Source: Anaerovorax odorimutans DSM 5092 (GTDB lineage: Bacteria; Bacillota; Clostridia; Peptostreptococcales; Anaerovoracaceae). Taken from it: a stretch of 64,000 nucleotides of DNA. A program made the position numbers and the translations under genes. Each line of letters starts with the position of its first letter. Positions within the stretch are counted from its first letter, which is position 1. The DNA lies in the NCBI RefSeq assembly GCF_000426305.1, contig NZ_KE384519.1, positions 1 to 64,000 of the forward strand. The letters are read 5' to 3'. Shown piece after piece: positions 14,943 to 56,203 of the stretch. The notes beneath the pieces were generated by a model. The model searched no databases and was not told where the DNA came from. It saw only the letters and a program-made list of their open reading frames with translations.

Positions 14943-15932
14943 TTGGGAGTTACAATAATAGGAACAGGAAAAGCATTACCTGAGTTATCTGTAAAAAATG
15001 AAAAATTAGCAGAACTGGTAGAAACAGATAATCAATGGATTATAGACAGAACAGGTATTGAATCAAGGCATATCTCTGTAAATGAAAAAGCTTTAGATCT
15101 AGCTGTTAGTGCAGCAAAAAAGGCTTTAGGAGAAATAGATTTAGATAGCATTGGACTTGTAATTGTTGCTACAGTTTCACCAGATGTATTAGTGCCGTCT
15201 ATGGCAGCACTTGTTAAAAGGGAACTACATTTGTCAAATGCAGTTGCATTTGATTTAAATACTGCCTGCAGTGGGTTTATATATGGAACATGGACAGCAG
15301 AAGCGCTTATAAAAAATGGAATGTGTGGAAATAGTAATACGAATAAAATTAATCGTGCATTGGTAATAGGCGTTGAAAGGTTGAGCAGAATTGTTAATTG
15401 GGAAGATCGAGGCACATGTATTTTATTTGGAGATGGCGCAGGGAGTGCAGTTTTAGAATATTCTCAGGAGAAAACCGGAATTATAGGAAGCTATGTAAAA
15501 AATTATGATGACGTTACAGATTGCTTAACGTGTGGTATGCAATATATTAAAACGCCTTTTACAAATGAAATAGAGCATAGTGATATGTTTTTAAAAATGA
15601 ATGGTCCACAGGTATTTAAATTTGCGGTAACAGCAATAGAAGAAGTTATGAATAAGGTTTTAACTGATACAGGAGTTTCAGCTGATGAAGTTAAATATTA
15701 TGTTCCTCATCAGGCAAATATGAGAATAATAAAGACTGCCGCGCAGAGATTTAAGCAGCCCCTTGAAAAATTTCAGGTAAATATTCAAAATACAGGAAAT
15801 GTATCTGCTGCTAGTATTCCTATGGCGTTAGCAGATTTAATGTCTAGTGGTAAGGTAAAAAGCGGAGATAAAATTATGATTGTTGGCTTTGGCGGCGGAC
15901 TTAGTGCAGGAGCTATCCTTTTTGAAGCGTAA
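14943..15932 (+). CDS. fabH: beta-ketoacyl-ACP synthase III
   Basis: FabH starts fatty-acid chains by condensing acetyl-CoA or branched acyl-CoA with malonyl-ACP. The 329-residue protein has the catalytic triad: Cys109 in NTACSG, His256 in VPHQAN and Asn286 in QNTGN. It begins with TTG at 14943, seven bases after GGGAGG; no upstream ATG fits. It is the first gene of the fab operon, downstream of the promoter and FabT-like box. Confidence 0.95.
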   Translation: MGVTIIGTGKALPELSVKNEKLAELVETDNQWIIDRTGIESRHISVNEKALDLAVSAAKKALGEIDLDSIGLVIVATVSPDVLVPSMAALVKRELHLSNAVAFDLNTACSGFIYGTWTAEALIKNGMCGNSNTNKINRALVIGVERLSRIVNWEDRGTCILFGDGAGSAVLEYSQEKTGIIGSYVKNYDDVTDCLTCGMQYIKTPFTNEIEHSDMFLKMNGPQVFKFAVTAIEEVMNKVLTDTGVSADEVKYYVPHQANMRIIKTAAQRFKQPLEKFQVNIQNTGNVSAASIPMALADLMSSGKVKSGDKIMIVGFGGGLSAGAILFEA

Positions 15933-25834: not shown

Positions 25835-26710
25835 TTATTTCACACAACAAAATCCCTTACTTGTCCAACGACGATATAGGCAGTTTGCGCAAGAATTCTC
25901 TTGTTCTGTTAAACGTTCTTCATGATCATTATCTAAAATAAAATCAGGACATTCTTGTTTCCAAATACCTTCAATAAGAGAATTATCAGGGTTAAATAAG
26001 TCGGATTTTTGACATATGCGATTTTGTGAATCTGCTAGAATAGTTTTTTCCCCGTTCCAAAGTACTGCTTTTGCAAATTTGTCTATATTAATAATCGTAC
26101 TCATTGATATTGGGCTGCCATCTAAATTCAGAACCTGAGAAACACCTGTCTCATCACAAAAGTCTTTAGCTGATATAACTTTTTCCCCGTTTTTCATTTT
26201 TAATTTACCACGAAATGTTCCGTCCCAACCGCTTAAACGCAGTCCTATGCCAGCTAACGCACCAATAATCCCTGCACCTGTATTGCCGTGTTCTGTTAAG
26301 GAGATACCTCCTAATTTATTTGCTAGGTTATAAGCTTCTTCTTTTTTTATTACTTCTTTTTTTGCACGGCAACCAAAAGCAATAAGCTCTTCGGGAGAAG
26401 TGACTTTTTCAGGAATACAAATACAAAGACCAGGGCAAGCGCTGGGAACAATATTATCTAGCAAAACTTTTTCGGCAGTATTACAAACTTGTTCATAGAG
26501 TTCTTTATCTATGTCAGCAGGGAAACACATCGAACTATTATGTGAAGTATAAGCGATATCCTCATGAAGTAATAATTGATGTCTTGTGATACCCAGTTCT
26601 GTAATGCCACCTAGTTTTTTTATTTCTTTTTCAATTAATTCAGCTATAGTTCCTGTACTTGTTGTTTTAGTTAAATCATCCGTGTCATCAACACATATTA
26701 AGATTCTCAT
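25835..26710 (-). CDS. TiaS-like (DUF1743) protein of unknown bacterial role
   Basis: A 291-residue protein whose N-terminal half matches archaeal tRNA-Ile2 agmatidine synthetase TiaS: CVDDTDDLTK, TSTGTIAELI, ELGITRHQLLLHEDIAYTS and HNSSMC. The middle (ISLTEHGNTGAGIIGALAG, LRLSGWDGTFRGKL) is also TiaS/DUF1743-like. It is shorter than archaeal TiaS (about 420) and appears to lack the OB-fold part, but keeps a C-terminal cysteine group (CANC ... FCCVK) that could bind zinc. Bacteria use TilS for the same tRNA position, so another job is likely. It is the last gene of the operon with the FecCD-type transporter; AAGGAGC precedes the start. Confidence 0.7.
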   Translation of the reverse strand: MRILICVDDTDDLTKTTSTGTIAELIEKEIKKLGGITELGITRHQLLLHEDIAYTSHNSSMCFPADIDKELYEQVCNTAEKVLLDNIVPSACPGLCICIPEKVTSPEELIAFGCRAKKEVIKKEEAYNLANKLGGISLTEHGNTGAGIIGALAGIGLRLSGWDGTFRGKLKMKNGEKVISAKDFCDETGVSQVLNLDGSPISMSTIINIDKFAKAVLWNGEKTILADSQNRICQKSDLFNPDNSLIEGIWKQECPDFILDNDHEERLTEQENSCANCLYRRWTSKGFCCVK

Positions 26711-26774: not shown

Positions 26775-27890
26775 TTATTTTCCTGCATTTTGTCCACTTG
26801 TTCGTATCCCTTCTCCTAAAAGAATCATGTTATAGGTTTCTTCATCTAAAGTAAGATTTAAATAGTTTTTATAGAAAGAAAATACTTCATCATGAAGGTT
26901 AATATCCTTATAATATTCAGGGTATAGTGTTGTGCCAGCCCAAAGCATTGCTAAAAATGTTTCTAAACTACCTTGCTGACCCCAACGAGTGGCACCCACA
27001 GGAATATTATAGACTTTATTTTCATAAACAGCACGTAGACCAGTCCATTTTGAATCAGATAAAAGATACTTCATAGTTAATGCATCATTACAAATAATAA
27101 CATCGGGATCCCAATTAAAGATTTGCTCCATACCGCAATAGTAATTTTCATCTTCTGATTTTAAATTTTCACCTACTGATACATTTATAAATCCAACATT
27201 TCTTGTCCAGTCAGCGCCTAAAGAATCTTCACCATCTGTACGAACTGCTTCATTGATAGAATGATAAACTCTAAGCTTTTCTTTCTGTGGAATTAATTTT
27301 GCACGCTCAGCAGTTAATTTAATTATATCTTCATAATACTTATTGATATCAACGGCTTTTTTTTCTGATTCACCGCCAATAATTTTACCGATCATATCTA
27401 ATGCAAATATTTGTTCTTCCATAGTTGTATAATTTACAACTAAATATGGGATTTTTAGCTTGTTTAATTTATTTATTTCTCCTTCATCTAGATAAAGTGC
27501 ATTTTTCAATAAGATTACATCGGGGTCAAGAGATAAAATTGATTCTGCACTAATTGTTCCTCCAGACATGGGTACAGAAATAGTTGTAAGCTCAGGATAT
27601 ATTTTTACTAATAATTTGTCCCTTTGTACACCATTTGGCGTAGCTACCATTTTTTCGCCAGCACCTAAAATTACCATTGCTTCTCCTGCAAAAGAATCTA
27701 GAGCCGCTACTCTATTGATTTTTTCAGGAATTACTACTTCTCTTCCTATACAATCAGTTATTGTTTTTCCGGATAAATTAGATTCTTTATTCGTTTCATT
27801 AAGGTTACAACCTGTACAGCTTATAAGTAAAGAAATAATAAGAATTATAATAAAATAATTGCGTACTTGTGATAACTTATATAATTTCAT
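26775..27890 (-). CDS. FecB/BtuF-type ABC transporter binding lipoprotein
   Basis: A 371-residue extracytoplasmic binding protein for a metal chelate. The signal peptide ends in a lipobox with a cysteine at about 25-28 (SCTGC). TDCIGREVVIPEKINRVAALD is the usual start of the peripla_BP_2 domain, and LSLDPDVILL and WDPDVIICND mark the two lobes. It works with the ATPase and FecCD permease upstream. The substrate (siderophore, haem, cobalamin or an oxyanion chelate) cannot be read; no cobalamin riboswitch or Fur box was seen near the operon. Confidence 0.88.
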   Translation of the reverse strand: MKLYKLSQVRNYFIIILIISLLISCTGCNLNETNKESNLSGKTITDCIGREVVIPEKINRVAALDSFAGEAMVILGAGEKMVATPNGVQRDKLLVKIYPELTTISVPMSGGTISAESILSLDPDVILLKNALYLDEGEINKLNKLKIPYLVVNYTTMEEQIFALDMIGKIIGGESEKKAVDINKYYEDIIKLTAERAKLIPQKEKLRVYHSINEAVRTDGEDSLGADWTRNVGFINVSVGENLKSEDENYYCGMEQIFNWDPDVIICNDALTMKYLLSDSKWTGLRAVYENKVYNIPVGATRWGQQGSLETFLAMLWAGTTLYPEYYKDINLHDEVFSFYKNYLNLTLDEETYNMILLGEGIRTSGQNAGK

Positions 27891-27925
27891 AGAAATCTCC
27901 GTTCTGTATTTAATAAATACTTTAA

Positions 27926-28732
27926 TTATAATGTTTTTAAAGGGATAATTTGACGTAAATTACCATAATCGCCATCATATGAAGATATGATTTTTGAGTC
28001 AATTTGATAAATTCTGCGAATAGATTCTTCTGTAAGTATCTCATTAGGCAATCCTGATTTATAAATTCCACCCTTGCTCATTATAGCAATTTTCACATTA
28101 ATAGCTTGATTTTCAAAATAAAATGCTTGATTAGGAGAATGAGTTGCCATTAATACCGATACGCCGTGATCTTTAATTAATTTAACAACAGTTTCCATAA
28201 AAAGCAATTCATTTTTATAATCTAAATGAGCAGTAGGCTCATCCATAATGATAATAGGTGTTTGTTGGACTAAAGCTCTTGCAAGCATAACAAGCTGCAT
28301 TTCTCCGCCGCTGATTTGAGTATAAGGGCGGTCTGCCAAATGGGCAATGCCAACAGAGGTTAAAGCATTTAAAGCTATTTGTTCGTCTTTATCACTGGGC
28401 GTTTGAAAATGAGTCATATGCGCACTTCGTCCCATTAGAACAATTTGTATAACCTGGTAAGGAAAAGATCTGTCATGTATTTGAGGAACATATGCCAATT
28501 GTTTTGCCAATTGAGATGGTTTGTAGACAGAAAGCAGTTGATCTGCAATTTCTATTTCTCCATTACGTAGTTTGTGTATTCCTAATATACAGTCTAAAAG
28601 AGTACTCTTTCCGCAGCCATTAGGGCCCATGAGACAGCATAATTGTCCTTTTCCCAGTTTTAGATTAACATTGGAAAAAAGATTATTTTCATCATATCCA
28701 AAACTTGCATTTTTCACATGTATCAGATTCAT
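27926..28732 (-). CDS. FecE/FepC-type ABC transporter ATPase
   Basis: A 268-residue ABC ATPase with Walker A GPNGCGKST, Q-loop YVPQ, a signature in the unusual form ISGGEMQ (first residue Ile, not Leu), Walker B IIIMDEP and switch His in ATHSP. It begins at the TAATG overlap with the permease stop codon at 28732, which shows tight coupling. It energises chelate uptake with the adjacent FecCD permease and binding lipoprotein. Confidence 0.9.
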   Translation of the reverse strand: MNLIHVKNASFGYDENNLFSNVNLKLGKGQLCCLMGPNGCGKSTLLDCILGIHKLRNGEIEIADQLLSVYKPSQLAKQLAYVPQIHDRSFPYQVIQIVLMGRSAHMTHFQTPSDKDEQIALNALTSVGIAHLADRPYTQISGGEMQLVMLARALVQQTPIIIMDEPTAHLDYKNELLFMETVVKLIKDHGVSVLMATHSPNQAFYFENQAINVKIAIMSKGGIYKSGLPNEILTEESIRRIYQIDSKIISSYDGDYGNLRQIIPLKTL

Positions 28733-29745
28733 TATTTCCAGCCGCCTCCTTTAGTCTTTTTCAATAGATAAATAAAGAATGGTGCACCAATTAAAGAGGT
28801 TAATATGCCTAATGGTATTTCTGAGGCAGTAATACTGCGGCTGATTGTGTCAATCAGAACCATGAAAGCTGCTCCCATAGACATGGATACCGGCATTAAG
28901 CGTCTATTATCGTTACCTACAATCATTCGTCCCATATGGGGTATAATTAAACCTACCCAGCCGATCATACCTGACATACATACAGAGCCTGCTGTTGCCA
29001 ATGTTGCACCTGTAATAATTAATAATTTATTTCGTTTTACATCCACACCCATTGTTTGGGCTTCCTTATCTCCCATGGATAAAACATTAATTTTCCAGCT
29101 CATAATGAACAATATAATAAGACCTGATACAACTGGTATCAATGCCCAAAAATCACTGTAACCAACAGATGAAAGACTGCCCATAAGCCAATAAACAATA
29201 GTAGGAAGCTGACTTTCTGTATCGGCTACATATTTAAGAAATGAAAGCAATGCACTGAAAAGTGAAGACACTATGGTACCTCCCAATATGAGCATTACAG
29301 TTGGAACTGATTTATAAATTCTGGCAATCCAATAACTCATTCCTACAGCAATTATACCAAAGGAAAAAGCTAGTACGTAGGATGTCCATTGTGCTGCAAA
29401 TAAAATAATAGCTAAAGCAGCACCGAATCCAGCTCCTGAGCTTACACCAAGTAAACCGGAATTTACAAGGGGATTACGAAATACTCCTTGAAAAGCACAG
29501 CCGCTGGCAGCAAGGCCTGCACCAATGAAAGCGCCTGCAATGGCTCTTGGTAAACGCAGCTGGGTTACAACCGTTAATGTTTCCCTGGAAATATTTTTAG
29601 ACACATCAAAATCTAATGGAGCAAGAAGGGAGTAAATCACTTCTGAAAAAGATACATGGTAACGCCCTACAAAAAGAGTACCTAATATAAATATAATAGG
29701 CACTGATAATATGGCAATGTTTAAAATCCCTTTTTTTAGTATCAT
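28732..29745 (-). CDS. FecCD-type ABC transporter permease
   Basis: A 337-residue permease of the FecCD/BtuC family with about nine to ten helices. It shows the markers RLPRAIAGAFIGAGLAASGCAFQGVFRNPLA-like sequence near residue 70, GWVGLIIPHMGR and the EIPLGILTSLIGAPFFIYLL end. The start ATGA overlaps the stop of the upstream oxidoreductase by four bases, and the end overlaps the ATPase start. It forms the channel of the chelate importer. Confidence 0.92.
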   Translation of the reverse strand: MILKKGILNIAILSVPIIFILGTLFVGRYHVSFSEVIYSLLAPLDFDVSKNISRETLTVVTQLRLPRAIAGAFIGAGLAASGCAFQGVFRNPLVNSGLLGVSSGAGFGAALAIILFAAQWTSYVLAFSFGIIAVGMSYWIARIYKSVPTVMLILGGTIVSSLFSALLSFLKYVADTESQLPTIVYWLMGSLSSVGYSDFWALIPVVSGLIILFIMSWKINVLSMGDKEAQTMGVDVKRNKLLIITGATLATAGSVCMSGMIGWVGLIIPHMGRMIVGNDNRRLMPVSMSMGAAFMVLIDTISRSITASEIPLGILTSLIGAPFFIYLLKKTKGGGWK

Positions 29746-31220
29746 GATCTTTCCTCCGTTTTAGCTTTTGATATATGGGCTGAGGATATTAGATCAGCAT
29801 CACTTCCTGCTATATTTTTAATTAAAACTTTACCTGGAGATATTGGGGCATCACAAGAAAATTTTCTTGCAATTGCAATAACCTCTGGAATTAATTTTTT
29901 TGAAATAGGTTTGTCCGTACGCACAGGTAACAAAGGGCGAATTCCTCCATTAAGTTTTACGCTGGTTGTTACAGTTCTTTGAGGGTTCGTATATTCTTCT
30001 AATGCAAAAGCTTCTCCTTTATGACAGCCAAAATCAGTAATTTCATAGGAATCACCCGAAGATGAAGTCTTGCATATGGATATTTGACAGCCTGTAGGAC
30101 ATAAAATACAAGTTATTTGCTTTTCTTTATCTTGCAGATTTTTATTTAATTGATTGATCCCCTTTGGTTCTGTTATTTCTATCTTAAGTTGTCTGCTTAA
30201 GTCATTTGAAATTGTAAAGTCTGAAAGAATCCATTCAGAAGCTTCTATTCCCGCACGTTGTCCTTCCAAGGAAACACTGTCTGCTAAATCGTGAACTTTT
30301 ACGCAATTGCCGCAAGCAAAAATTCCTTCTTTTCCTATACATAAATTCTCATCAAGATCAAGCTTTTCTGAGGAATCTGAAATTAGACTTGAATCTTTAC
30401 AAATTTCCAATTCCGGAATTAGTCCTGCAGCGATTAATAATGTATCACAAGGTACATATTCTTTTTCATTTAGGGTTATCTCACCATTTTCATTTATAGG
30501 AGCAATAGTTACACCCTTTAATCTTTTATATCCGTGAACAGAGACAACGGTCTTTCCATATTGCATAGGAATATTAAAATCCTCAACACATTGAACATGA
30601 TTACGTACTAATCCGGTAGAGTTTTGCCCTAAAATCAGTTTTACATTAATACCCTCTAATGTCATACGACGTGCCATAATCAAACCAATATCACCAGAAC
30701 CTAAAATAACTGCCGATTTTCCGGGAAGATAATTTTGAATATTCATCATATATTGAGCTGAACCAGCAGTGTAAATTCCTGAAGGTCTGCTGCCCGGAAT
30801 ATGTAATTGAGCTAATGTTTTTTCTCGGCAGCCTGTGGATATAATAACAGCTTTTGCAGATACTTGATTTATACCATCAATGTTATTGATATAAGAGATG
30901 CCCCATTTTTTCTTTACTGAGTCTGTATCTTCTTTTATTTCAAAAATTTTTAATGCAGTAGTAGTAAGATAAATGTCAATATCTAAAGCTTTTAAATCAT
31001 CTGCCCATTTTTCAGCGTATTCAGGTCCTGTAAGGGATTTTTTATATAAATAAAGACCAAATCCATCATGTATACATTGAGGTAAAATGCCTCCTAAATA
31101 ATTATGACGTTCTATAATTAGAATATTTTTAATTCCACAGAGTTTTGCACTTACGGCAGCTGCCATGCCTCCAGGACCTGCACCGATAACTACAAGATCA
31201 TAATGTTTTTTAACATTCAT
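29742..31220 (-). CDS. FAD/NAD(P) oxidoreductase with DUF1667 domain
   Basis: A 492-residue fusion. Residues about 1-345 form a two-dinucleotide-domain flavoprotein (VIGAGPGGMAAAVSAK, VILGSGDIGLIMARR, GIFACGNCVKVHDLAD). Residues about 370-480 match the DUF1667 domain with its cysteine motif CILCPTGC and a later CHKGE. In many Clostridia these are separate genes next to a GlpA-like partner; here they are joined. The pair is often called glycerol-3-phosphate or 2-hydroxy-acid dehydrogenase-like, but substrate is not proven. Four-base overlaps with both neighbours show a coupled operon. Confidence 0.85.
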   Translation of the reverse strand: MNVKKHYDLVVIGAGPGGMAAAVSAKLCGIKNILIIERHNYLGGILPQCIHDGFGLYLYKKSLTGPEYAEKWADDLKALDIDIYLTTTALKIFEIKEDTDSVKKKWGISYINNIDGINQVSAKAVIISTGCREKTLAQLHIPGSRPSGIYTAGSAQYMMNIQNYLPGKSAVILGSGDIGLIMARRMTLEGINVKLILGQNSTGLVRNHVQCVEDFNIPMQYGKTVVSVHGYKRLKGVTIAPINENGEITLNEKEYVPCDTLLIAAGLIPELEICKDSSLISDSSEKLDLDENLCIGKEGIFACGNCVKVHDLADSVSLEGQRAGIEASEWILSDFTISNDLSRQLKIEITEPKGINQLNKNLQDKEKQITCILCPTGCQISICKTSSSGDSYEITDFGCHKGEAFALEEYTNPQRTVTTSVKLNGGIRPLLPVRTDKPISKKLIPEVIAIARKFSCDAPISPGKVLIKNIAGSDADLISSAHISKAKTEERS

Positions 31221-32668
31221 TTTCTCACCTGACCTTTTACAAATTGACTGCCCTTTGTACTTTTTAATATTTTATCAGGGGAAACATGCCATTCCCTGCT
31301 TAGAATTTCAATAATATTTGGTGTACAAAATGCACCTTGGCAACGTCCCATGCCTGTACGTAAACGCTTTTTCAGTCCATTTAAACTTTTAGGGGGCAGA
31401 GGCTCATTTAATACACGAAGAATATCACCTTCTGTAATTTTTTCACACCTGCATACAATATTACCATAGGCAGGATTTTGTTTAAATAATTCTATTTGCT
31501 CCTTTTGTGATCTTTCCAAAAATGGTTTGTTAGACGGAAGCTTAGAAACAAAATTATCTTTTTTGATTAAAGATAAACCTTCTTGTTTCAGTAAGTTAAT
31601 CATTTTGTCTGCTAAATAAGGAGCAGCTGTCATGCCTGGGTTTTTAATTCCCAAAGCACTTACAAAATGAGGTGCACTTATGCGAACTACAAAATCTTTT
31701 TCTTCTTTTGCCACATTTTTAATATTAGCTCTGACACCTGCAAAACTTGTAATTACACGCCCCATATCAATATCTGGGAGAACTTTTTTTGCAACAGCTT
31801 CAACGTGAGAAAGACCTGATTTAGTAGTTTCATTACAATTAAAGGATCTTACATTTTCTGAGGTTGGACCTACTAATAAATTACCATCAATTGTTGGAGC
31901 AATTAATGTTCCTCCTTCATTGTTTTCTTGAGCTTGGTAAATTACATGATTTATTTTATAACCTTTTGGCTGTTTATCAAAAACATAATACTGCCCACGT
32001 CTTGGCTTTATAATTAAATCAGCAGGACGTACTAAGCTTTCTATGGGAGCTGCTTGCTCACCTGCAGTATTTACAATATAATCTGCTGAAAATTCCCCAG
32101 TATCAGTATGTACTATATATGATTTGTTTTCCTTTTTTAATCCGATTACATTTGTTTGAAAAAGAAATTCTATGCCATTTAAATTTGCTGATTTAGCAAC
32201 GGCTAAAATGAGCTGGAAAGGTGAAATGATTCCAGTAGTAGGGGCATAAAGTGCCTGTAATATTTTAGAGCTCAATGCAGGCTCCATTTTTCTAGCATTT
32301 TCTCCACTTATTATTTCAAGTCCCACAGCACCGTTATTGATACCTTTTTTCATTTTTTCTTTTAAAGTTTCAATTCCTTCTTGATGAAAGGCAACAAAAA
32401 GAGAACCCACATAAGACATGGGAACTTGTAGATCTTTGCAAATATCAGAGTAAAGAGCATTTCCCTGTACACATGAAATACCCTTTAGGCTTCTTGATCT
32501 AGGGTGAAAACCAGCATATAAGACTCCGCTGTTAGCTTTTGTAGCACCTTCACCTACATCATAAGCTCGTTCTATGACTAAAACTTTTAAGTTGTAACGG
32601 CTCAGTTCCCTTGCAGTCATAGTTCCTAAGATACCTGCACCTATAATAATTACATCATAATTTTCCAT
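31217..32668 (-). CDS. GlpA/LhgO-like FAD oxidoreductase with BFD-like Fe-S domain
   Basis: A 483-residue flavoprotein. The N-terminal DAO domain (IIGAGILGTMTARELSRY, GATKANSGVLYAGFHPRS, GLYPGD-type SALGIKNPGMTAAP) is like GlpA and L-2-hydroxyglutarate oxidases. The C-terminal 90 residues carry a BFD-like 2Fe-2S site: VCRCEKITEGDI then GRCQGAFCTP. It is the first gene of the six-gene operon and partners the next flavoprotein. The likely reaction is oxidation of a hydroxy acid or glycerol-3-phosphate, with electrons leaving through Fe-S centres. The divergent MarR gene probably regulates it. Confidence 0.85.
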   Translation of the reverse strand: MENYDVIIIGAGILGTMTARELSRYNLKVLVIERAYDVGEGATKANSGVLYAGFHPRSRSLKGISCVQGNALYSDICKDLQVPMSYVGSLFVAFHQEGIETLKEKMKKGINNGAVGLEIISGENARKMEPALSSKILQALYAPTTGIISPFQLILAVAKSANLNGIEFLFQTNVIGLKKENKSYIVHTDTGEFSADYIVNTAGEQAAPIESLVRPADLIIKPRRGQYYVFDKQPKGYKINHVIYQAQENNEGGTLIAPTIDGNLLVGPTSENVRSFNCNETTKSGLSHVEAVAKKVLPDIDMGRVITSFAGVRANIKNVAKEEKDFVVRISAPHFVSALGIKNPGMTAAPYLADKMINLLKQEGLSLIKKDNFVSKLPSNKPFLERSQKEQIELFKQNPAYGNIVCRCEKITEGDILRVLNEPLPPKSLNGLKKRLRTGMGRCQGAFCTPNIIEILSREWHVSPDKILKSTKGSQFVKGQVRK

Positions 32669-40483: not shown

Positions 40484-41308
40484 ATGAGAAATAATAAAAA
40501 TTTAAACAAAATACTTGTAAAATTATCAATTGTTCTATGTATGTTATTGTGCCTATCTTTTTATTCATTTGCAGAAGGCGGCAATGGTGATGGAAGCGGA
40601 GGAGGTAGGGATATCCCTGTAGGTATTGCATCGAGCAATATTACGGATGGTCAGGTTGATGTACCTATTGATACCCAAATAAATTTAGAATTTAATAAGA
40701 ATGTAATCAATATAAGTGTAGCGGAAAATAACAAAAGCTGCTTTACTTTGGTAGATAATAATGACAAAAATATTGGTATAACTGTAGTTATGGGAGATGA
40801 TCAAATTGATCCAAGTATTAGGAGGTTAATTACTGTTATACCAGATGGCTTAGAAGCAGAAACAAAATATACTTTAACAATTAGTAAAAATTTTACTGCG
40901 AAAAATGGAGTATCCCTTAAAGAGCCGATTATTCTTTCCTTTACAACAGAAGGAAAGAAAGAAGCTGTTCAAAGTACAAATATTGCAGTAGCTTCTAACA
41001 ATCTAAATCAGAAGGATGCAAATAATAAAGATCAGCCAGAACAACCGGATTTTTCAAATATTATAAATAAAGATAAGGTAGAAAAAACAGATGTTACCAG
41101 TATTACTGAAGCGGGATTAACAGAAACAGAATCAGGACTAAAGCTATCCCAGGCAGGTATAGATAATGGTGTGAAGCAAGAACTGAAAAATTCTACGGAA
41201 ATAAATAAGATAAAATTATTTTCTGGTATTATTATAATTGTTTTGGCTGTACTTATTGCATATGTTATATTAAAAAGAAAATTAAATAAAAAAGCAATAA
41301 AAAAATAA
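40484..41308 (+). CDS. secreted Ig-like protein with C-terminal membrane anchor (cassette A)
   Basis: A 274-residue protein. It has a signal peptide (VLCMLLCLSFYSFAEGG), a Gly-rich linker, one Big_5-type Ig domain (about 45-165: SSNITDGQVDVPIDTQINLEF ... SFTTEG), a Ser/Asn/Glu-rich spacer and a C-terminal membrane helix (about 245-265) followed by KRKLNKKAIKK. It is paralogous over its whole length to 44993-45700, and its signal and anchor also recur in 46100-46348. The topology puts the Ig domain outside the cell. It lies between the RCC1/SLH gene and the first riboswitch-type leader. Function unknown; it could be a docking or binding module. Confidence 0.75.
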   Translation: MRNNKNLNKILVKLSIVLCMLLCLSFYSFAEGGNGDGSGGGRDIPVGIASSNITDGQVDVPIDTQINLEFNKNVINISVAENNKSCFTLVDNNDKNIGITVVMGDDQIDPSIRRLITVIPDGLEAETKYTLTISKNFTAKNGVSLKEPIILSFTTEGKKEAVQSTNIAVASNNLNQKDANNKDQPEQPDFSNIINKDKVEKTDVTSITEAGLTETESGLKLSQAGIDNGVKQELKNSTEINKIKLFSGIIIIVLAVLIAYVILKRKLNKKAIKK

Positions 41309-41337
41309 ACAAAAAATAAGAAAATGTAAATTATAAC

Positions 41338-41383
41338 GAAAAAGCAAGGATTTCTTGCTTTTTTTATTTTAATAAAGTATAAT
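41338..41383 (+). promoter_or_regulatory. terminator overlapping a promoter (cassette A)
   Basis: AAAAGCAAG and CTTGCTTTTTTT (41340-41364) form a terminator. Its 3' arm supplies TTGCTT (41355-41360) as a -35, followed by 17 bases and TATAAT (41378-41383). The same overlap occurs at 45737-45765 and, with a shorter spacer, at 46387-46413. Confidence 0.7.
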
Positions 41384-41403
41384 CTTCATAATTAAATAAT
41401 AAG

Positions 41404-41540
41404 TTTTCCGAGTTAAACATTTCTAAGGCGATAGGCTATGAAGTTTAACCGTTGGGTTTATAAAGAAATTTATACGCCTCCCATTTGGAAAGGAAGATGA
41501 CAAATATAAATCTTTCCTTTGTTTTACAAAGGATTTTTTA
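41404..41540 (+). promoter_or_regulatory. Moco/Tuco-type riboswitch leader before surface protein genes
   Basis: TTTTCC (41404-41409) pairs with GGAAGA (41492-41497). Inside are GA, a seven-pair stem GTTAAAC/GTTTAAC (41412-41449), GGG, a six-pair stem TATAAA/TTTATA capped by GAAA (41459-41474), GCCTCCC (41476-41482) and TTGGAAAGG. A terminator follows: TCCTTTG/CAAAGGA plus six T (41515-41539). The next gene (41596) starts 56 bases later. Parts and order match the AOR, MOP and tupA-region leaders, so the ligand is probably the same. A Moco/Tuco leader on S-layer-type genes is unexpected. Confidence 0.65.
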
Positions 41541-41595
41541 TGTTTGTCTTTTATTTTTGCTTAAAAATTAATGTAGTGTATTTAGGAGGTAAAAA

Positions 41596-42876
41596 ATGAA
41601 AAAGGACAAGAGGAAGTTATTAAGTTTTATTCTCTGCCTAGCTTTGATCTTTGGAATGACTGGAGCTTTTGGATTATTTTTTGAAGGTAATCTTCCAGTA
41701 GCCAATGCTGAAGATACTCAAGATTTGGGAACAGGGAGTGGTGACCTTACAGGATCAGGAAGTGAAGAGGTCGCGGCAACTACTTTTTCTGCGATTTTAA
41801 TAAATCCTGGTGAATCGAGTTTGTCATCAATTAATTTAAATAATGCAGAATTTCAGATTGAGTTTAATACTGAGGTAAAGAAAAATGCTATTAGGGTAGA
41901 TGAAGCGGTTAGTGTACTTAGTGGAGATGCAATTATTGCAACAGCTAATGAAACAGGTGATGTTAAAGGGATCACATATTCAGAACCGGATGTTAATGAT
42001 AAAGGAACCAAGACAAAAGTAACCTTTACAGTGGATCCTACTTTGTTAAATCCAAATACTACTTATAAATTTAAGTTAGATGCCAATATGAAGAATGATA
42101 TCAAAGCGGTACCTCCGCTTACTTTGGGAGAAGATGTAATTTATCAATTTACAACTTCAGAAGATGAATATGTTGAACCTGAAGTGACACCTGAAGTAAC
42201 TTTTGCAGCTATAAATCTTTATCCAATTAAAGATGCAAAAAATATATTGGTAGATGACAGCTTTAACATAGGATTTAGTAAAAGTATAAAAGAAAATAAG
42301 AACATTACAAATAATACAGCTGTTGAACTGAAAAAAATTGAGGGAACTACCGTTCCAGCTATTCTTACATTAAGTGATGGCAATAAAATTCTTACTGTTG
42401 ATCCAGCTGAGTCATTAGAATATGGAACTAAGTATGAACTTGTAATTTTGGATAACACAATTACATGCAGTGAAAGTGGTATTAAACTAACTTCATCATC
42501 TATTACTTTTAAAACAACAAGCTTTGATAATATAACAGTCGAAGCCCAAAAACAAGAGACATCAGGAGCTTCCATTTCACTTAACCTACATAATGCAGGA
42601 GCAGAAGCTCAAAATGCAAAGATTGTTTGTGTAGTAAGAAGAGATAGAGGAGCAAACCTTGAAGAAGGCGGAACTGTAGTCGCAAAATGTGAAAGTGAAT
42701 TATCTGTTGAAGCTAATAATAATAAAGAAATACAAATTAATATAGAAGATATCACTAAGAATCTAGTAAATGGAGATTTAGTTAATTTAGAAAAAGGTAA
42801 TATCTTTGCAGATGTTTATATTATGAATAAAAATGGTGAAATACTTTATACTCCATTGCATAAAGAAATAATTTAA
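41596..42876 (+). CDS. secreted protein with two Big_5 Ig-like domains
   Basis: A 426-residue protein with a signal peptide ending near PVANAEDT (about 37), a Gly/Ser-rich linker, and two Big_5/SbsA-type Ig domains (about 55-195 and 205-305). A C-terminal beta-rich domain (about 310-426, with SISLNLHNAGAEAQNAKIV) resembles those that end non-anchored surface proteins. It has no SLH repeats or membrane anchor, so it may be held by the SLH protein encoded 22 bases downstream. AGGAGGT precedes the start. Expression is probably controlled by the leader at 41404-41540. Confidence 0.78.
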   Translation: MKKDKRKLLSFILCLALIFGMTGAFGLFFEGNLPVANAEDTQDLGTGSGDLTGSGSEEVAATTFSAILINPGESSLSSINLNNAEFQIEFNTEVKKNAIRVDEAVSVLSGDAIIATANETGDVKGITYSEPDVNDKGTKTKVTFTVDPTLLNPNTTYKFKLDANMKNDIKAVPPLTLGEDVIYQFTTSEDEYVEPEVTPEVTFAAINLYPIKDAKNILVDDSFNIGFSKSIKENKNITNNTAVELKKIEGTTVPAILTLSDGNKILTVDPAESLEYGTKYELVILDNTITCSESGIKLTSSSITFKTTSFDNITVEAQKQETSGASISLNLHNAGAEAQNAKIVCVVRRDRGANLEEGGTVVAKCESELSVEANNNKEIQINIEDITKNLVNGDLVNLEKGNIFADVYIMNKNGEILYTPLHKEII

Positions 42877-42898
42877 AAATAGAGAAAAGGAAAGTCAA

Positions 42899-44902
42899 AT
42901 GAATAAATTTAAATTAAAAAAGGTACTTGCCCTAATCTTTGTATTAGCATTTATGATATCCAGTACTATAACAGCATTTGCAGCGGCAGAAATATCCTTT
43001 GTTACTAACGGTGCTGCTAAAAAATATGCCGCAGGCTCTGTTCTTAGAATACTTGGTAAGGTTGAAGATAATGATTTAGCAATAAGTAAAACAAATGTTG
43101 AAATTAATATTACAGCAGATGGTAAAGTAGTATACTACGGAAACATAACAACTGACAGTAATGGATATTTTAAAACCACATTTACAGTTCCATCAGGTGT
43201 TAGTGGTAATATGAATATTTCCATGAATGCAGCAGGAAATAATATTGATGTGAGTGATTATGCAGTTTTAGATGTGACGGAAACTTTAGTTTTAGCGGGA
43301 TCTGTTCCTGAAGTTGGATTGACAGAAGCAGATAATAAAATTATCTCTGCGTCAACTTCAAAAATAGGTTTGGCTTTTAGCGGGAATGTAAATTACTTTA
43401 ATAATAAAAACAGTTCAGAGAATGGCTTGCCTGAAAGTCTTGGAACGAATGATTGGAATAAAGACTGTATAACTTTATACGAAAAGGAGAGTAATGGAGA
43501 TTACAAAAAAATTCCTTCAAGTATAGATCTTGTGTCTTCCAGCATTAAAGGAAATGCTCTTGTTTCCGGAATTACATATTTTTCAGGAGTAGCAAAAGAA
43601 GACCAAAAAAGTGAAAGAAAAGATGTGATATTTATATCTGCAGAAAATGGATTTAAAGCAAATACTTCTTATAAAATTGCAGTAGATAAAGATTTATGCC
43701 AAAACAGCAGTGCGAGAATGGCAAGTGATGAAACCGTATATTTTACTACTGGTTCTGCTTCTAACGGCGGTAATGGCAGCAGTGGAAGTGGCACGGGTGA
43801 TAACCAAGAAAAAAATACTGTTATTGTTTCAAAGCCTACTTTTAAAGGTACTACGGCAACAATTGCCCCAACTGATACTCAAATTAACGATGCTGTTAAA
43901 AGTTTAAATAAGGATGATAAGAATATAATTACTTTTAAAGTAAGTGAATCTGACATAAGTAAGAATAGCGGAGATATCAATGTATTAGAATTAAAAATAT
44001 CAGAAGCACAGAGAGATAAAATAAAAGACTCAAAATTAGCTTATGATACACCAATAGGTACTGTTACTTTACCAACACAAGTAATTTCTCAAGTAAGGGG
44101 AGATATAGATCTTACAATTACAAAAGTTGAAGAGGATACATATAAAGTAACATTGACAGATGAAAAAGGAAATATATCAAATTTAAATGGCAGAGTAAAA
44201 TTGAAATTCCAGGTTAATGATAAAACAAAGAACTTACTAAGTCATAATGGTGTTATTATGAAAAATGCTATGGTAGAAAATGGGGAAGCCTTTGGTATAA
44301 CAAGTTCATTTAGTACATTCAAATTAGAAAATAAATCAGTGACATTTTCAGATATTTCAAAACACTGGGCAAAATCAAATATAGAATTTTTAGCTGCAAG
44401 AAATATTGTTAATGGTGTTAGTGAAGATGAATTTGCTCCTAATAATAATATAACCAGAGCGGAATTTGTTAAAATGCTCATTAATTCATTAGATGAATTA
44501 GATATTAAGGCAGGATCAGCAACTAATTCGTTTAAAGATGTAAAAGAAGGAAAATGGTATACGGATTATATAAATTGGGCAGCAGAAAAAGGTATTGTTT
44601 CAGGAATGGGTAACGACACATTCGGGACAGACAGAGCTATTTCAAGGCAAGATATGGCAGTTATTATTGAAAGATTTGCCAATGAAATGAATATTGATTT
44701 AAGTGCTAATATAAATAAAGTAACTTTTGCAGATGATACGGAAATTTCCGGCTATGCAAAGGAATCCGTTTATAAGATGCAGCAAGCAGGAATTATTAAT
44801 GGTGTAGGCGGTAATAATTTTAATGCAAAGGACAGTGCAACAAGAGCAGAGGTTGCAAAAATAATCAATATGCTTATAGAAGATTTGGTAACAAATAATT
44901 AG
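42899..44902 (+). CDS. S-layer homology domain surface protein
   Basis: A 667-residue secreted protein. It has a signal peptide (about 1-28), an N-terminal Ig-like domain (about 30-122) and a Big_5-type domain (about 130-285). A Gly/Ser linker and an amphipathic repeat-like part (about 300-475, with HLNGRVKLKFQV-like strands) follow, then three SLH repeats (about 480-667: FSDISKHWAKSNIEFL, FKDVKEGKWYTDYI, FADDTEISGYAKES). SLH domains bind pyruvylated secondary wall polymer. It is co-transcribed with the 426-residue protein and so also lies under the riboswitch-type leader. A hairpin at 44927-44959 follows. Confidence 0.88.
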   Translation: MNKFKLKKVLALIFVLAFMISSTITAFAAAEISFVTNGAAKKYAAGSVLRILGKVEDNDLAISKTNVEINITADGKVVYYGNITTDSNGYFKTTFTVPSGVSGNMNISMNAAGNNIDVSDYAVLDVTETLVLAGSVPEVGLTEADNKIISASTSKIGLAFSGNVNYFNNKNSSENGLPESLGTNDWNKDCITLYEKESNGDYKKIPSSIDLVSSSIKGNALVSGITYFSGVAKEDQKSERKDVIFISAENGFKANTSYKIAVDKDLCQNSSARMASDETVYFTTGSASNGGNGSSGSGTGDNQEKNTVIVSKPTFKGTTATIAPTDTQINDAVKSLNKDDKNIITFKVSESDISKNSGDINVLELKISEAQRDKIKDSKLAYDTPIGTVTLPTQVISQVRGDIDLTITKVEEDTYKVTLTDEKGNISNLNGRVKLKFQVNDKTKNLLSHNGVIMKNAMVENGEAFGITSSFSTFKLENKSVTFSDISKHWAKSNIEFLAARNIVNGVSEDEFAPNNNITRAEFVKMLINSLDELDIKAGSATNSFKDVKEGKWYTDYINWAAEKGIVSGMGNDTFGTDRAISRQDMAVIIERFANEMNIDLSANINKVTFADDTEISGYAKESVYKMQQAGIINGVGGNNFNAKDSATRAEVAKIINMLIEDLVTNN

Positions 44903-44926
44903 GTAATATATAATTTCTACATTAGA

Positions 44927-44959
44927 ATAGATAAGGGGGCGCAGGCTCCCTTTATCTAT
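44927..44959 (+). terminator. hairpin after the SLH gene
   Basis: ATAGATAAGGGGGC and GCTCCCTTTATCTAT form a strong stem with a short loop but no T tract. The next gene starts 33 bases later, so read-through is possible. Confidence 0.55.
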
Positions 44960-44992
44960 AACCGTTATAATTATAATAAGGAAAAGGTAACC

Positions 44993-45700
44993 ATGTTAAA
45001 GAGTAAAATTTCAATTAAGATATTTAGACAAATAATGTTAATCCTATGCTTGATCTTTAGTTTAACAATACTTGCAAATGCCGAAGATGGCAATGGAAAT
45101 GGCGGAGGAGAAAACAGAGATATTCCTGTAGGTATTGTATCTAGTAATGTAGCAGACGGACAGGTTGATGTTCCTGTTGATATAAATATAAATTTAGAAT
45201 TTAATAAAAATGTCATCAATATAAGTGTAGCGGAAAATAACAAGAGTTGTTTTTCATTAGAGGATGAAAATGGAAATAATATAGATATTTCAATAGCTAT
45301 GGGTGATGATCAAATAGACCCTACGGTAAAAAGACTTATTACAGTTGTACCAAAAGAAAATTTAGAAGCCGGTATAAAATATACACTTACAATTAGTGAA
45401 AATTTTACTGCCAAAAATGGAGTGTCTCTTGAGAAACCCATTAGCTTAACCTTTACAACTTTAAAAGAAAATATTATAAATGAAACAAGTGATAAAAATT
45501 TAACTAATTCCCAAAATGTCACGGAATCTAGTATGAAAGTTACAAAAGAATCTTTAAGTGTTACTAAAGCTGGGATATCAGAGGATAAAAAAGATACACA
45601 GAAAGTAAATATGATTAAGATATTATCCATAGTCAGCATTATAATTTCATTTATTTTACTTATAGTATATTTTATTATGAGAAGAAATATAAAAGAATAA
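44993..45700 (+). CDS. secreted Ig-like protein with C-terminal anchor (cassette B)
   Basis: A 235-residue paralogue of 40484-41308: signal peptide (MLILCLIFSLTILANAEDG), Gly-rich stretch, one Big_5 Ig domain (about 42-155, nearly the same VGIVSSNVADGQVDVP and DDQIDPTVKRLITVVP motifs), a shorter spacer and a C-terminal membrane helix (about 210-228) followed by MRRNIKE. AAGGAAAAGG precedes the start. Sequence between the two copies is well conserved in the Ig domain and diverges in the spacer. It is followed by the second terminator-promoter and a decayed leader. Role unknown. Confidence 0.75.
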   Translation: MLKSKISIKIFRQIMLILCLIFSLTILANAEDGNGNGGGENRDIPVGIVSSNVADGQVDVPVDININLEFNKNVINISVAENNKSCFSLEDENGNNIDISIAMGDDQIDPTVKRLITVVPKENLEAGIKYTLTISENFTAKNGVSLEKPISLTFTTLKENIINETSDKNLTNSQNVTESSMKVTKESLSVTKAGISEDKKDTQKVNMIKILSIVSIIISFILLIVYFIMRRNIKE

Positions 45701-45724
45701 TTAAGCTTTGTTCTTTGTAAATTA

Positions 45725-45765
45725 AGCCATGTAGCATTGCTTTTTTTATTTGTAAGCAGTATAAT
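45725..45765 (+). promoter_or_regulatory. terminator overlapping a promoter (cassette B)
   Basis: AAGCCAT/ATTGCTT with a T7 run makes a weak terminator; TTGCTT (45737-45742), 17 bases and TATAAT (45760-45765) make a promoter in the same DNA, as in cassette A. Confidence 0.6.
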
Positions 45766-45786
45766 TAGTATAACAATATAATGAAA

Positions 45787-45917
45787 ATTTTCCCAATTCA
45801 ACTAATCGTAGATAGACGTTTATTGGAGAATATAAAGTATTTATGTACCATTGATCCAAGGAATATAAAAACAATTAATAAAATGATTTTTCCCTTGTGA
45901 TACAAAGGGATTTTTTA
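45787..45917 (+). promoter_or_regulatory. decayed copy of the riboswitch-type leader
   Basis: It aligns to the 41404 leader: TTTTCCCAATT for TTTTCCGAGTT, CGTTTATTGGAGA for the stem and GGG region, and ATATAAA-GTA-TTTATGT (45830-45846) for the GNRA stem. CCATTGATCCAAGGAA stands in for CCCATTTGGAAAGGAA. The invariant CCGA, GGG, GAAA loop and CCTCCC are damaged. The terminator TCCCTTGT/ACAAAGGGA plus six T (45891-45916) remains. Ligand binding is probably lost, and the terminator may now act constitutively. Confidence 0.55.
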
Positions 45918-46017
45918 TTGTATTTTTAGAAAAAGGTATCCTTTGTGTTTAAAATTTAATAATAGAGTTTTAAATTTAAATAATGTTTGATTTAGCTTTT
46001 AGGAGGTGTCATCTGGT

Positions 46018-46035
46018 ATGTACAATAAAACATAA
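46018..46035 (+). other. aborted start after the decayed leader
   Basis: AGGAGGTG (46001-46008) is the best ribosome binding site here, but its ATG (46018) opens a five-codon frame (MYNKT) that stops at once. This looks like the broken front of a former gene equivalent to 41596, or a leader peptide. Confidence 0.4.
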
Positions 46036-46099
46036 AGGTAAAAATATTAACTTTAACTTAAAACTATCTAAAAAACAATTTAAAGAAAGAATGGGAAAA

Positions 46100-46348
46100 A
46101 TGAAAAACAGTAAATTTATAAAAAAATTAGTAAGTCAAGTTATAATAGTTCTATGCATGCTAATAGGCTTATCCTATATATCCTTTGCAGAAAATTTAAA
46201 TGGAGCTTTAAGCATCTATAATAATTATGCAGAGTGTCAGTCAGTTACAAATATTAATGTTTTAAACATGTTTTCATTACAAGGCAGTATAGTTGCTTTT
46301 ATAATATTGTTAATTTGTTTAGCGGCAAATAGAAAAATAAATGAATAA
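46100..46348 (+). CDS. Ig-less paralogue of the secreted anchor proteins (cassette C)
   Basis: An 82-residue protein whose signal peptide (VIIVLCMLIGLSYISFAEN) matches those of 40484-41308 and 44993-45700 and whose C-terminal membrane helix (about 57-78) sits in the same place. Only about 30 residues lie between, so the Ig domain has been deleted. The start could be 46091 or 46100; neither has a good ribosome binding site. A longer frame from 45983 also exists but its upstream part looks unconserved. It may be a degenerating copy or a small two-helix membrane protein. Confidence 0.5.
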   Translation: MKNSKFIKKLVSQVIIVLCMLIGLSYISFAENLNGALSIYNNYAECQSVTNINVLNMFSLQGSIVAFIILLICLAANRKINE

Positions 46349-46362
46349 AACAGATTAAATAA

Positions 46363-46413
46363 AGTGATAAAAGCGAGTTTTATATCTTGCTTTTATCTTT
46401 AAAAAAATATAAT
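46363..46413 (+). promoter_or_regulatory. terminator with overlapping promoter-like sequence (cassette C)
   Basis: GATAAAAGCGAG and CTTGCTTTTATC (46363-46399) form a terminator. TTGCTT (46387-46392) and TATAAT (46408-46413) resemble the cassette A and B promoters, but the spacer is only 15 bases. Confidence 0.5.
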
Positions 46414-46434
46414 TATAAGTAATTGAATAATAAG

Positions 46435-46595
46435 TTTTCCGAGTTGAATTTTCTAAGGTAATTACTATGAAGTTTAACCGCTGGGTATATAAAGAAATTT
46501 ATATGCCTCCCGTTTGGAAAGGAAGATAACAAGTATAGAAATTTTTGTTTTACAAATTTGTAATTCAAGGACTATTTTATGTTTGTTTTTTTTAT
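46435..46595 (+). promoter_or_regulatory. Moco/Tuco-type riboswitch leader upstream of tupA
   Basis: TTTTCC (46435-46440), GA, a stem GTTGAA/TTTAAC (a G-U where cassette A has A-U), GGG, a perfect seven-pair stem ATATAAA/TTTATAT with GAAA loop (46487-46504), GCCTCCC (46505-46511) and TTGGAAAGGAAGA follow in order. Downstream, AAATTTTTGT/ACAAATTT and a late run of eight T may be a decayed terminator. tupA starts about 380 bases further on with no gene between, so control of tupA is likely but not certain. Confidence 0.65.
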
Positions 46596-46976
46596 GCAGT
46601 AAATCACCTTCTATTACATAAAATTACTTAAAACACGCAATATAGGTAATAAGAGATGAAGATAATAATTATTTAAAGTTTTAAACTTATTTTTACTAAA
46701 TCATAAGAAGAAATTAGAATTTATTAGTTAAAGAAAATATGTAATTATAAAGATTAGATATTAACTTAATATTAGAGAAATATATATTGTTATTTTAGGC
46801 AAAAAAGCAAAAGAAAATGACGAAGGATAATGTGTATTATCATATTAAAGATAAGGTAAAATATATACATTGTATGTATATATTTATAGTTTATTTTTAC
46901 AAGGAGAATAAAAGTTATGCTGTTTAAGCAGACTTTTTTCTAATAAATTTTTACTTAAGATAAATAGGAGGAAAAA
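46596..46976 (+). other. long tupA upstream region
   Basis: No full gene is visible. It holds a perfect 10-bp inverted repeat ATATATACAT-TGT-ATGTATATAT (46861-46883), a candidate operator. A well-placed AAGGAG then leads to an eight-codon frame MLFKQTFF (46917-46943), a possible leader peptide. The tupA ribosome binding site AGGAGG follows. Confidence 0.5.
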
Positions 46977-47855
46977 ATGTTAAAGAAAAAAAGTATTTTA
47001 TCACTATTATTAGTAATGATAATGGTGGTATCTATGGCAGCTTGTGGAAATACAGATAAGCAAACAGAGGATGAAAATAATACTCCTGCTGAAGCTAGTA
47101 AAACCATAAGACTTGCTACAACAACAAGTACAAGAGACAGCGGGCTGCTTGATGAGATTTTGCCTGTATTTACTAAAGAAACGGGCTATGATGTAGATGT
47201 TATAGCAGTTGGCTCCGGAGAAGCAATGAAAATGGGGGAAAATGGAGAAGCTGATGTACTTTTAGTTCATTCTCCCGAAGCAGAAAGAGAATTTGTTGAA
47301 GCTGGACATGGTCCTGAAAGATTTGATGTAATGTATAATGATTTTGTTATTCTTGGACCAAAAGATGATCCTGCGGGAATTAATACCGCAGCGCCAAATA
47401 ACGCTAAGGATGCATTTAAAAAGATTTATGATGATCAAATTAAATTTATTTCAAGAGCAGATGAATCAGGGACGCATAAAAAAGAGTTATCAATTTGGAA
47501 AGAATTGAATCTAACTCCAGAGGGAGATTGGTATGTGGAATCCGGCAAAGGCATGGGAGATGTTATTACTATGACAAACGAAATGCTAGGATACACTCTT
47601 TCTGACAGAGCAACTTGGTTGAATATGTCAGAAGGTACTGATTTGAAAATAGTTACTGAAGGAGATAAGGATTTATTTAACCAATATGGAGTTATAGTTG
47701 TAAATCCTGAAAAAAATGATCAAATAAATGCAGAAGGTGCAAAAGCATTCCAGACATGGATACTTTCAGAGTCAACTCAGAAGTTAATAGGAGAATATGG
47801 CAAAGAAAAATATGGAAGTCCACTATTTACACCAAATGCGGCTGAAGCTAAATAA
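46977..47855 (+). CDS. tupA: tungstate ABC transporter binding lipoprotein
   Basis: A 292-residue lipoprotein (lipobox MAAC, Cys about 23). The mature start IRLATTTSTRDSGLLDEILP is the TupA signature, in which the TTTST residues bind the oxyanion. GSGEAMKMGENGEADVLLVHSPEAE, FISRADESGTHKKE and the SDRATWL segment are also typical. TupA binds tungstate far more tightly than molybdate. Its permease and ATPase genes follow but are separated by a minus-strand gene (47913-48485). Confidence 0.92.
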   Translation: MLKKKSILSLLLVMIMVVSMAACGNTDKQTEDENNTPAEASKTIRLATTTSTRDSGLLDEILPVFTKETGYDVDVIAVGSGEAMKMGENGEADVLLVHSPEAEREFVEAGHGPERFDVMYNDFVILGPKDDPAGINTAAPNNAKDAFKKIYDDQIKFISRADESGTHKKELSIWKELNLTPEGDWYVESGKGMGDVITMTNEMLGYTLSDRATWLNMSEGTDLKIVTEGDKDLFNQYGVIVVNPEKNDQINAEGAKAFQTWILSESTQKLIGEYGKEKYGSPLFTPNAAEAK

Positions 47856-56020: not shown

Positions 56021-56040
56021 ACAAAAAAATAACAAATGAA

Positions 56041-56203
56041 TATTTTCTCCGAACTCTGTTCCCTGTTGCTGCAAGTTATGGGTGCAGAGTCTATGGGTTT
56101 ATGTAGAAATGCGTAGGCCTCCCGTGCTTGGAAAGGAAAAAAACAAGTTAATTTGATAAATTTTTATCAAAGCCTTTTCACGTACGTTGAAAAGGCTTTT
56201 GTT
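56041..56203 (+). promoter_or_regulatory. Moco/Tuco-type riboswitch leader of the MOP gene
   Basis: TTTTCTCCGA (56043-56052), a six-pair stem ACTCTG/CAGAGT (56053-56090), GGG, a stem TATGTA/TGCGTA with GAAA loop (56100-56115), GGCCTCCCG (56116-56124) and TTGGAAAGGAAAA. A terminator follows: AAGCCTTTTCA/TGAAAAGGCTT (56170-56198). Both stems differ in sequence from the other leaders yet keep pairing. It precedes a molybdenum enzyme gene by 57 bases, the best context here for a Moco riboswitch. Confidence 0.75.

Follow-up and report, generated by a model that had tools for sequence, protein, structure and literature searches.

The locus studied here lies in a stretch of 64,000 nucleotides of Anaerovorax odorimutans DSM 5092 (contig NZ_KE384519.1, positions 1 to 64,000 of the forward strand), denoted below as the window, and raises the question why an RNA of the molybdenum cofactor (Moco) class, termed RS1, precedes genes for proteins of the cell surface. 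As judged from comparison of sequences, the region 41394–45700 probably represents the envelope arm of a MolABC-like system for the acquisition of molybdenum (Mo) or tungsten (W), made when the cofactor is short; the uptake, its ligand and the direction of the switch are what we infer from these comparisons. RS1 itself is confirmed as a real feature, and the pattern joining RNA, surface proteins and importer across the family is strong.

The RS1 leader and its surface-protein unit

The leader and the three genes behind it are arranged as follows, where SLH stands for surface-layer homology, TM for transmembrane, Ig for immunoglobulin, and L233 for a related locus described below.

41378–41383, plus strand: candidate -10 box TATAAT, with TTGCTT (41356–41361) 16 nucleotides upstream, assigned by eye
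41394–41511, plus strand: Moco RNA aptamer RS1 (RF01055, P3-lacking form)
41515–41533, plus strand: intrinsic terminator of RS1 with T tail, from a terminator scan
41596–42876, plus strand: secreted protein of 426 amino acids with a Big_5 domain (Pfam); residues 215–398 are related to the product of the gene that opens the L233 operon (E 2.6e-10)
42899–44902, plus strand: SLH-anchored protein of 667 amino acids with three SLH domains (Pfam, over the cut-off); its L233 relative has the same operon position
44993–45700, plus strand: Big_5/TM protein of 235 amino acids with an N-terminal helix, one Ig-like domain and a C-terminal helix; marker of FecBCD clusters

In an Rfam search of the window RS1 reaches 69.3 bits, far above the gathering score of 36 for RF01055, which bears out the assignment of the leader to the Mo/W-cofactor aptamers in an earlier note on this DNA. 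All 15 P3 positions are empty in its alignment to the family. The same note had given the leader a promoter and a terminator of its own. The terminator is found at 41515–41533, within a region where six terminator-like sites compare with 1.6 expected (both strands, 41250–47000); the promoter is plausible only, being represented by the boxes assigned by eye, while a promoter scan found 33 sites against 35.2 expected, thus no excess, and did not list the TATAAT at 41378–41383. The segment 41404–41545 folds with a minimum free energy z-score of -2.85, and in its minimum-energy fold the aptamer stems and the terminator coexist. The spacings are as claimed earlier, the T tail being separated from the start codon (ATG, 41596) by about 56 bases, and the first gene, ending at 42876, from the second, starting at 42899, by 22 bases.

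Between the 5′ arm of the RS1 terminator and the GGAAAGGA core within the aptamer, pairing is possible (p 0.01–0.03 compared with shuffled sequences). By this pairing a bound aptamer would favour termination and a shortage of cofactor would favour expression; from it we infer the direction of RS1 as a putative attenuator of the OFF type.

The third gene of the unit, at 44993–45700, was left out of the earlier note. The helices at both ends of its product are read as a signal peptide and a membrane anchor. In the predicted structure of this Big_5/TM protein, the predicted local distance difference test (pLDDT) gives blocks of 92–98 through most of the Ig domain and a mean of 80.8 for the whole chain. 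Its best superposition, on CopC, yields a Z-score of 12.7 and a root-mean-square deviation of 1.6 for 96 residues, nearly tied with the Z-scores of 12.4–12.5 for unrelated Ig-like domains. Because the latter score almost as CopC does, the fold by itself says nothing on metal binding, and CopC and the CopC-like domain of YcnJ serve for fold comparison only; the modelled domain is an Ig-like domain of CopC size, no more. A profile search of the PDB with the Big_5/TM alignment gave no match. The structure of the SLH protein, predicted from two sequences, had a pLDDT of 48.8 and was not used.

Recurrence of the unit in other genomes

A protein-only search of genome contigs with a five-member Big_5/TM alignment yielded 48 loci, mostly from Clostridia (Desulfosporosinus, Desulfoscipio, Thermincola, Sporotomaculum, Syntrophomonas, Flavonifractor), together with one Coriobacteriia and one Atribacteria record. 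They are not all independent: L252/L254 and L250/L251 look like near relatives, and two of the records, L234 and L247, supplied seed sequences. Fec genes occur in 44 of the 48 loci, the gene of a TiaS-like protein in 39 and an SLH protein in 19; labels of tupA, tupB, moeA, moaA or AOR are present in seven. The four loci lacking Fec genes are L218, whose record starts near the cluster, and three loci with ABC ATPases of other kinds (L243, L252 and L254). The seed patterns F[NS]KNV[IV]N and [..]NN..C make these Big_5/TM motifs conserved by construction, while D105 and D106, outside the seed patterns, are conserved in 40/40 sequences.

The 48 loci (735,660 bases) were searched with a local covariance model, R1, which was built from 43 chosen aptamers of at most 126 bases and leans to P3-lacking forms, yet found three matches of 142 bases. 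It detected 53 Moco RNAs in 29 loci, and each of these loci has at least one whose distance to a following gene in the same orientation (Big_5, SLH, Fec or TiaS-like) is within 700 bases. The RNA leads the cluster in 29/48 loci, or 27/46 without the seed records L234 and L247; in L214 and L235 the Big_5/TM gene stands apart, and the genes led by the RNA are those of Fec, joined in L214 by an SLH gene. Tandem or closely spaced Moco RNAs stand before one cluster in L167 (6843–6954 and 7001–7117), L210, L212, L221, L225 and L237, and in L213 the stretch ends with three in a row (15092–15672), located behind the cluster.

The closest counterpart of the window is L233, from a metagenome-assembled genome of Syntrophomonadaceae, where a Moco RNA is followed by genes for a 1128-residue protein, a 654-residue SLH protein, the Big_5/TM protein, FecCD, FecE and FecB. 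The 1128-residue protein is partly related to the 426-residue protein of the window (E 2.6e-10) and likewise to the N-terminal portion of the 2222-residue SLH protein listed below. The 654-residue protein aligns with the window's 667-residue protein over residues 7–474 (E 1.8e-65, 41% identity over the pair). By these alignments the RS1 unit matches the first part of the L233 operon, the Fec genes of the window being located elsewhere. The genome search for the leader before Big_5 and SLH genes that the earlier note had proposed thus finds it to recur, including this collinear operon.

Two other markers were rejected. The whole 426-residue protein is too specific, with a match in 2/61 genomes, its own included, and the 235-residue Big_5 protein matched in 22/61 genomes, where many matches are a different Big_5 protein. 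In 17 control loci (L039–L055) no RF01055 match was found; in most of them, as assigned by eye, another Big_5 protein adjoins tadA- or ispE-like genes.

The recurrence has to be set against a simpler origin of the RS1 unit, a regulatory accident in which the tupA leader was duplicated and the copy landed in front of S-layer genes that have nothing to do with it, SLH proteins being abundant in this genome. Further features of the window and its contig are:

33653–40321, plus strand: SLH protein of 2222 amino acids with RCC1, fn3 and Big_5 domains (Pfam)
40484–41308, plus strand: Big_5/TM paralogue of 274 amino acids, upstream of RS1, with its own terminator at 41338–41364 (Pfam, alignment, terminator scan)
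46425–46540, plus strand: second Moco RNA, RS2, before tupA (RF01055, 75.2 bits)
56035–56154, plus strand: third Moco RNA, RS3, before a molybdopterin-dependent aldehyde oxidoreductase (RF01055, 67.7 bits)
74007–74131, same contig (contig 5): fourth Moco RNA of the genome (RF01055)

RS1 resembles RS2 in sequence comparison, which fits a copied leader, as does a stretch at about 45780–45910 that looks like a decayed leader and retains an intact terminator. The genome holds 111 SLH domain matches in total, and for this reason an SLH gene behind one of its four Moco RNAs would not be improbable by itself and could be chance. The weight of the link between RNA and SLH protein comes, since chance is possible within this genome alone, from its recurrence elsewhere: in other families and lineages the RNA is again followed by these gene families, as in L233 and the 29/48 RNA-led loci, and this makes an accident highly improbable.

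The decayed stretch has no Rfam match; its terminator spans 45891–45910. It lies before a small open reading frame (45983–46348) whose product of 121 amino acids matches only residues 1–36 (signal peptide) and 233–268 (membrane tail) of the 274-residue Big_5/TM protein and looks like an internally deleted copy. Within 46425–46977, RS2 is separated from tupA by 437 nucleotides, and the stretch behind RS2 is without the clear terminator kept by RS1. No RF01055 match precedes the gene of the 2222-residue SLH protein.

In 393 genomes of the order, a sample selected without regard to the RNA, there are 17 carriers of a strong Big_5/TM match (E below 1e-39). A Moco RNA is found somewhere in the genome in 17/17 of these carriers compared with 119/376 of the others (Fisher p 7e-9, kinship not corrected); for genomes having only weaker Big_5/TM matches the count is 11/57. 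In the 14 further carrier loci Fec genes lie within about 8 kb in every case and are contiguous in nine. In L293, L295, L296, L297 and L298 the Big_5/TM gene stands beside the gene of a secreted protein of 640–676 residues and membrane genes that look to be of the MoxR, DUF58 and transglutaminase-like types, as judged by eye from only two of the sequences (L293 and L298); Fec genes are close in all five, and GlpA-like genes are near in all but L297.

Moco RNAs are present in 26/61 genomes, the own genome included, and in 136/393 genomes of the order. Among the matches listed in these two sets, the downstream genes of 143 Moco RNAs were read. For 101 of them tup, moe, moa, mod, aldehyde oxidoreductase or AOR genes are among the first three on the same strand, while the downstream run holds an SLH gene in nine and Fec genes in eight. 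Together with the RNA-led Big_5/TM loci, these nine cases place the class before surface-protein genes beyond the window, as the earlier note had supposed for RS1. Two kinds of surface operon are seen. In the first, the genes of FecCD, FecE and FecB follow on from SLH and/or Big_5/TM genes (G035, G060, G063), and the window unit belongs with this kind; in the second, the surface proteins carry an Oxidored_molyb domain and are at times accompanied by SLH, FMN_bind, MotA_ExbB or DUF2149 proteins.

The second kind bears on the alternative that the surface proteins of the window carry or support an extracellular activity dependent on Mo/W, with the riboswitch matching their production to the cofactor supply. 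Other Moco RNAs of the order do precede Oxidored_molyb surface proteins, some with SLH, FMN_bind or Fe-S partners (G035 C13:26596, G045 C1, G060 C75/C45/C48, G002 and G044 by Pfam, several as single matches under the cut-off; G078 by the local model only), and two P3-lacking RNAs stand before putative sulphite oxidase genes in S. wolfei, as stated in the available part of Regulski 2008 (PMC2408646). The products of 41596–45700, of 426, 667 and 235 residues, have no match to Oxidored_molyb (PF00174) either in Pfam or with a local model of the secreted versions, and their relatives sit with FecBCD instead. The earlier note had left capture of the metal and a surface activity side by side: for the window, capture is favoured because relatives of its proteins lie in FecBCD importer clusters, and a surface activity, quite improbable here, fits the other Moco-RNA operons with Oxidored_molyb proteins.

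Moco RNAs before extracellular Oxidored_molyb proteins were also seen in L065, L072, L076, L078, L082, L088, L093 and L184, some with SLH, FMN_bind, Reg_prop or MotA_ExbB/DUF2149 proteins; a local alignment of the extracellular domains contains no shared cysteine. In L176, L182, L167 and L077 they precede runs with apparent ECF (energy-coupling factor) transporter parts, assigned by eye, the first three with FMN- or Oxidored_molyb-type proteins.

The importer genes and the possible ligand

A complete set of importer genes, consisting of permease, ABC (ATP-binding cassette) ATPase and FecB-type protein, is present in the window at 26775–29745, within a run of genes on the minus strand:

29742–32668, minus strand: two FAD oxidoreductases (DAO/Fer2_BFD, GlpA-like; Pyr_redox_2/DUF1667), in the same run (Pfam)
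28732–29745, minus strand: FecCD permease (PF01032)
27926–28732, minus strand: FecE-type ATPase (PF00005)
26775–27890, minus strand: FecB-type binding protein (PF01497); best solved matches 4ovk and MolA (3psa)
25835–26710, minus strand: TiaS-like protein, frequent partner of FecBCD clusters (NCBIfam, neighbourhood counts)

Relatives of one or both FAD oxidoreductases lie within the same cluster in G063 (L198), L246 and L289. The TiaS-like protein scores 39.7 bits against the NCBIfam model of TiaS over residues 1–161, far short of the cut-off of 600 bits; at the level of the family, alignments are obtained with 3u02 and with the N-terminal region of TiaS.

In the proposed mechanism, RS1 would let transcription through when the cofactor of W (or Mo) is scarce. 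The wall and membrane proteins would then bind extracellular Mo/W species and pass them to FecB, from where the FecCD/FecE importer encoded at 26775–29745 would take them up. This layout is modelled on the Isd haem relay of Gram-positive bacteria, carried over to Mo/W. Tungsten would be the likelier metal, since P3-lacking Moco RNAs have been tied to the tungsten cofactor in the available portion of Regulski 2008 (PMC2408646).

Compared with solved structures, FecB of the window matches 4ovk first, which carries only the name "periplasmic binding protein", and MolA (3psa) second (E 2.6e-20; 2.1e-42 with the profile). Seven residues are invariant in 26 aligned FecB proteins, namely H210, N213, E214, R217, T218, D219 and R302. 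N213 is matched in both structures, T218 in MolA, and R302 in 4ovk and not in MolA.

Several observations weigh against a Mo/W acquisition system of this make-up. H210, E214, R217 and D219 of FecB are matched in neither MolA nor 4ovk, and 4ovk is closer to the window protein than MolA. The FecBCD genes lie about 12 kb from the RS1 unit on the opposite strand, and no RF01055 match precedes them. Among the Big_5/TM loci 19/48 have no RF01055 match (R1 and Rfam); several of these are cut at the contig end, and those not cut include L215, L217, L222, L224 and L256, of which L215, L222 and L256 adjoin tup, moe and moa genes. In the order-level sample 10/14 further carrier loci gave no R1 match, and the RNA stands in the cluster leader in only 7/17 strong carriers (4/14 further loci, the window, G060 and G063). 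Finally, 39 aptamers before such clusters were examined for attenuation: 28 have a terminator clear of the aptamer, for nine none was found, and in two it overlaps the aptamer. The OFF pairing reaches p < 0.05 in only 4/28 leaders with a clear terminator (Fisher combined 0.005). The OFF direction is therefore suggestive only, with support in RS1 and weak support in general across the family. The terminator of G035 (L064/L234) is visible by eye yet was missed by both terminator finders. All strong carriers having the RNA and fewer than half having it in the leader, the cluster appears tied to the pathway, with RNA control common and not universal.

The unmatched invariant residues and the closer relation to 4ovk suggest that the ligand of FecB may differ from a bare oxyanion. 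They enter into a further alternative, in which the importer carries another nutrient such as haem, a corrinoid or an iron chelate, and the link to Mo/W is indirect. FecBCD families serve iron chelates and vitamin B12, and the best NCBIfam model for the FecCD permease is BtuC, with a score under the cut-off. In the other direction, a Moco RNA leads the cluster in the 29 loci described above, and Rfam searches of 20 loci, all but one of which lack an R1 match, brought no other riboswitch family to threshold, the remaining 28 having been searched with the Moco model only. MolA, moreover, is the nearest solved relative of FecB with a nameable function (PMC4031551). Another nutrient is improbable on balance, although slightly strengthened by the four unmatched residues and by the 28/48 loci covered with the Moco model only.

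Within the preferred reading, acquisition of Mo/W, a more specific version is possible though doubtful: the wall-to-membrane relay would handle bound W/Mo, as a metallophore complex or released Moco or its tungsten counterpart (Tuco), and not the free oxyanion, and the TiaS-like protein would act on the imported compound. It is suggested by the TupABC and ModABC-type genes, which already serve oxyanions, and by the FecB invariant residues, most of which are unmatched in MolA. FecBCD importers usually carry larger chelates, which counts toward such a bound form.

Relation to known systems

In RF01055 terms, RS1 shares with known Moco RNAs a score far over the cut-off, a terminator as expression platform and the P3-lacking architecture. 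It differs in its targets, which are surface proteins here and biosynthesis, oxyanion transport and enzymes in the available portion of PMC2408646; the words "surface", "S-layer" and "hypothetical" are absent from the main text of that paper. The same portion describes an S. wolfei operon with transport genes and unnamed genes of unknown function under three Moco RNAs, and the accessible part of PMC3582634 mentions both a tungstate permease and an S-layer protein from S. wolfei without linking the two. Searches of the open PMC literature gave no report that joins a Moco RNA to genes of S-layer, SLH or FecCD type.

Among transporters, MolBC-A consists of a permease and an ATPase of the BtuCD/FecCD type. 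It is described as the molybdate importer of Haemophilus influenzae (PMC4031551, in part). The window likewise has both components, together with a binding protein whose sequence is related to that of MolA; it differs in the Big_5/TM protein, often an SLH protein, the TiaS-like partner, in many cases Moco RNA control, and the poor match of invariant FecB residues to MolA. TupABC, WtpABC and ModABC are given as the three W/Mo oxyanion transporters in the consulted part of PMC11980592, a paper of 2025. They act in the same pathway, and tup and mod genes are present in the window, whereas their permease and binding-protein families are other than those of FecBCD. We know of no wall proteins belonging to TupABC, WtpABC or ModABC. 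Behind the modC-like gene of the window, on the minus strand, an open reading frame of near-identical repeats of 26 amino acids (11702–12073) may be a repeat array and not a gene.

In the Isd haem relay of Staphylococcus, wall and membrane proteins with NEAT domains and sortase anchoring stand ahead of a FecB/FecCD-type importer. The combination of wall and membrane proteins with such an importer is shared, while SLH and Big_5/TM proteins take their place here and the surface proteins of the window have no NEAT domain (Pfam, E 0.01).

In anaerobic carbon metabolism many enzymes require W and Mo, and the supply of these metals can be short. If the proposed reading is true, Clostridia and a few other lineages would possess a further kind of Mo/W importer with wall proteins of its own, tied to the RNA in many loci, and surface scavenging as known for haem would extend to Mo/W, with a gene set ready to test. 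Big_5 and SLH proteins that are now known by their domains alone would thereby gain a function.

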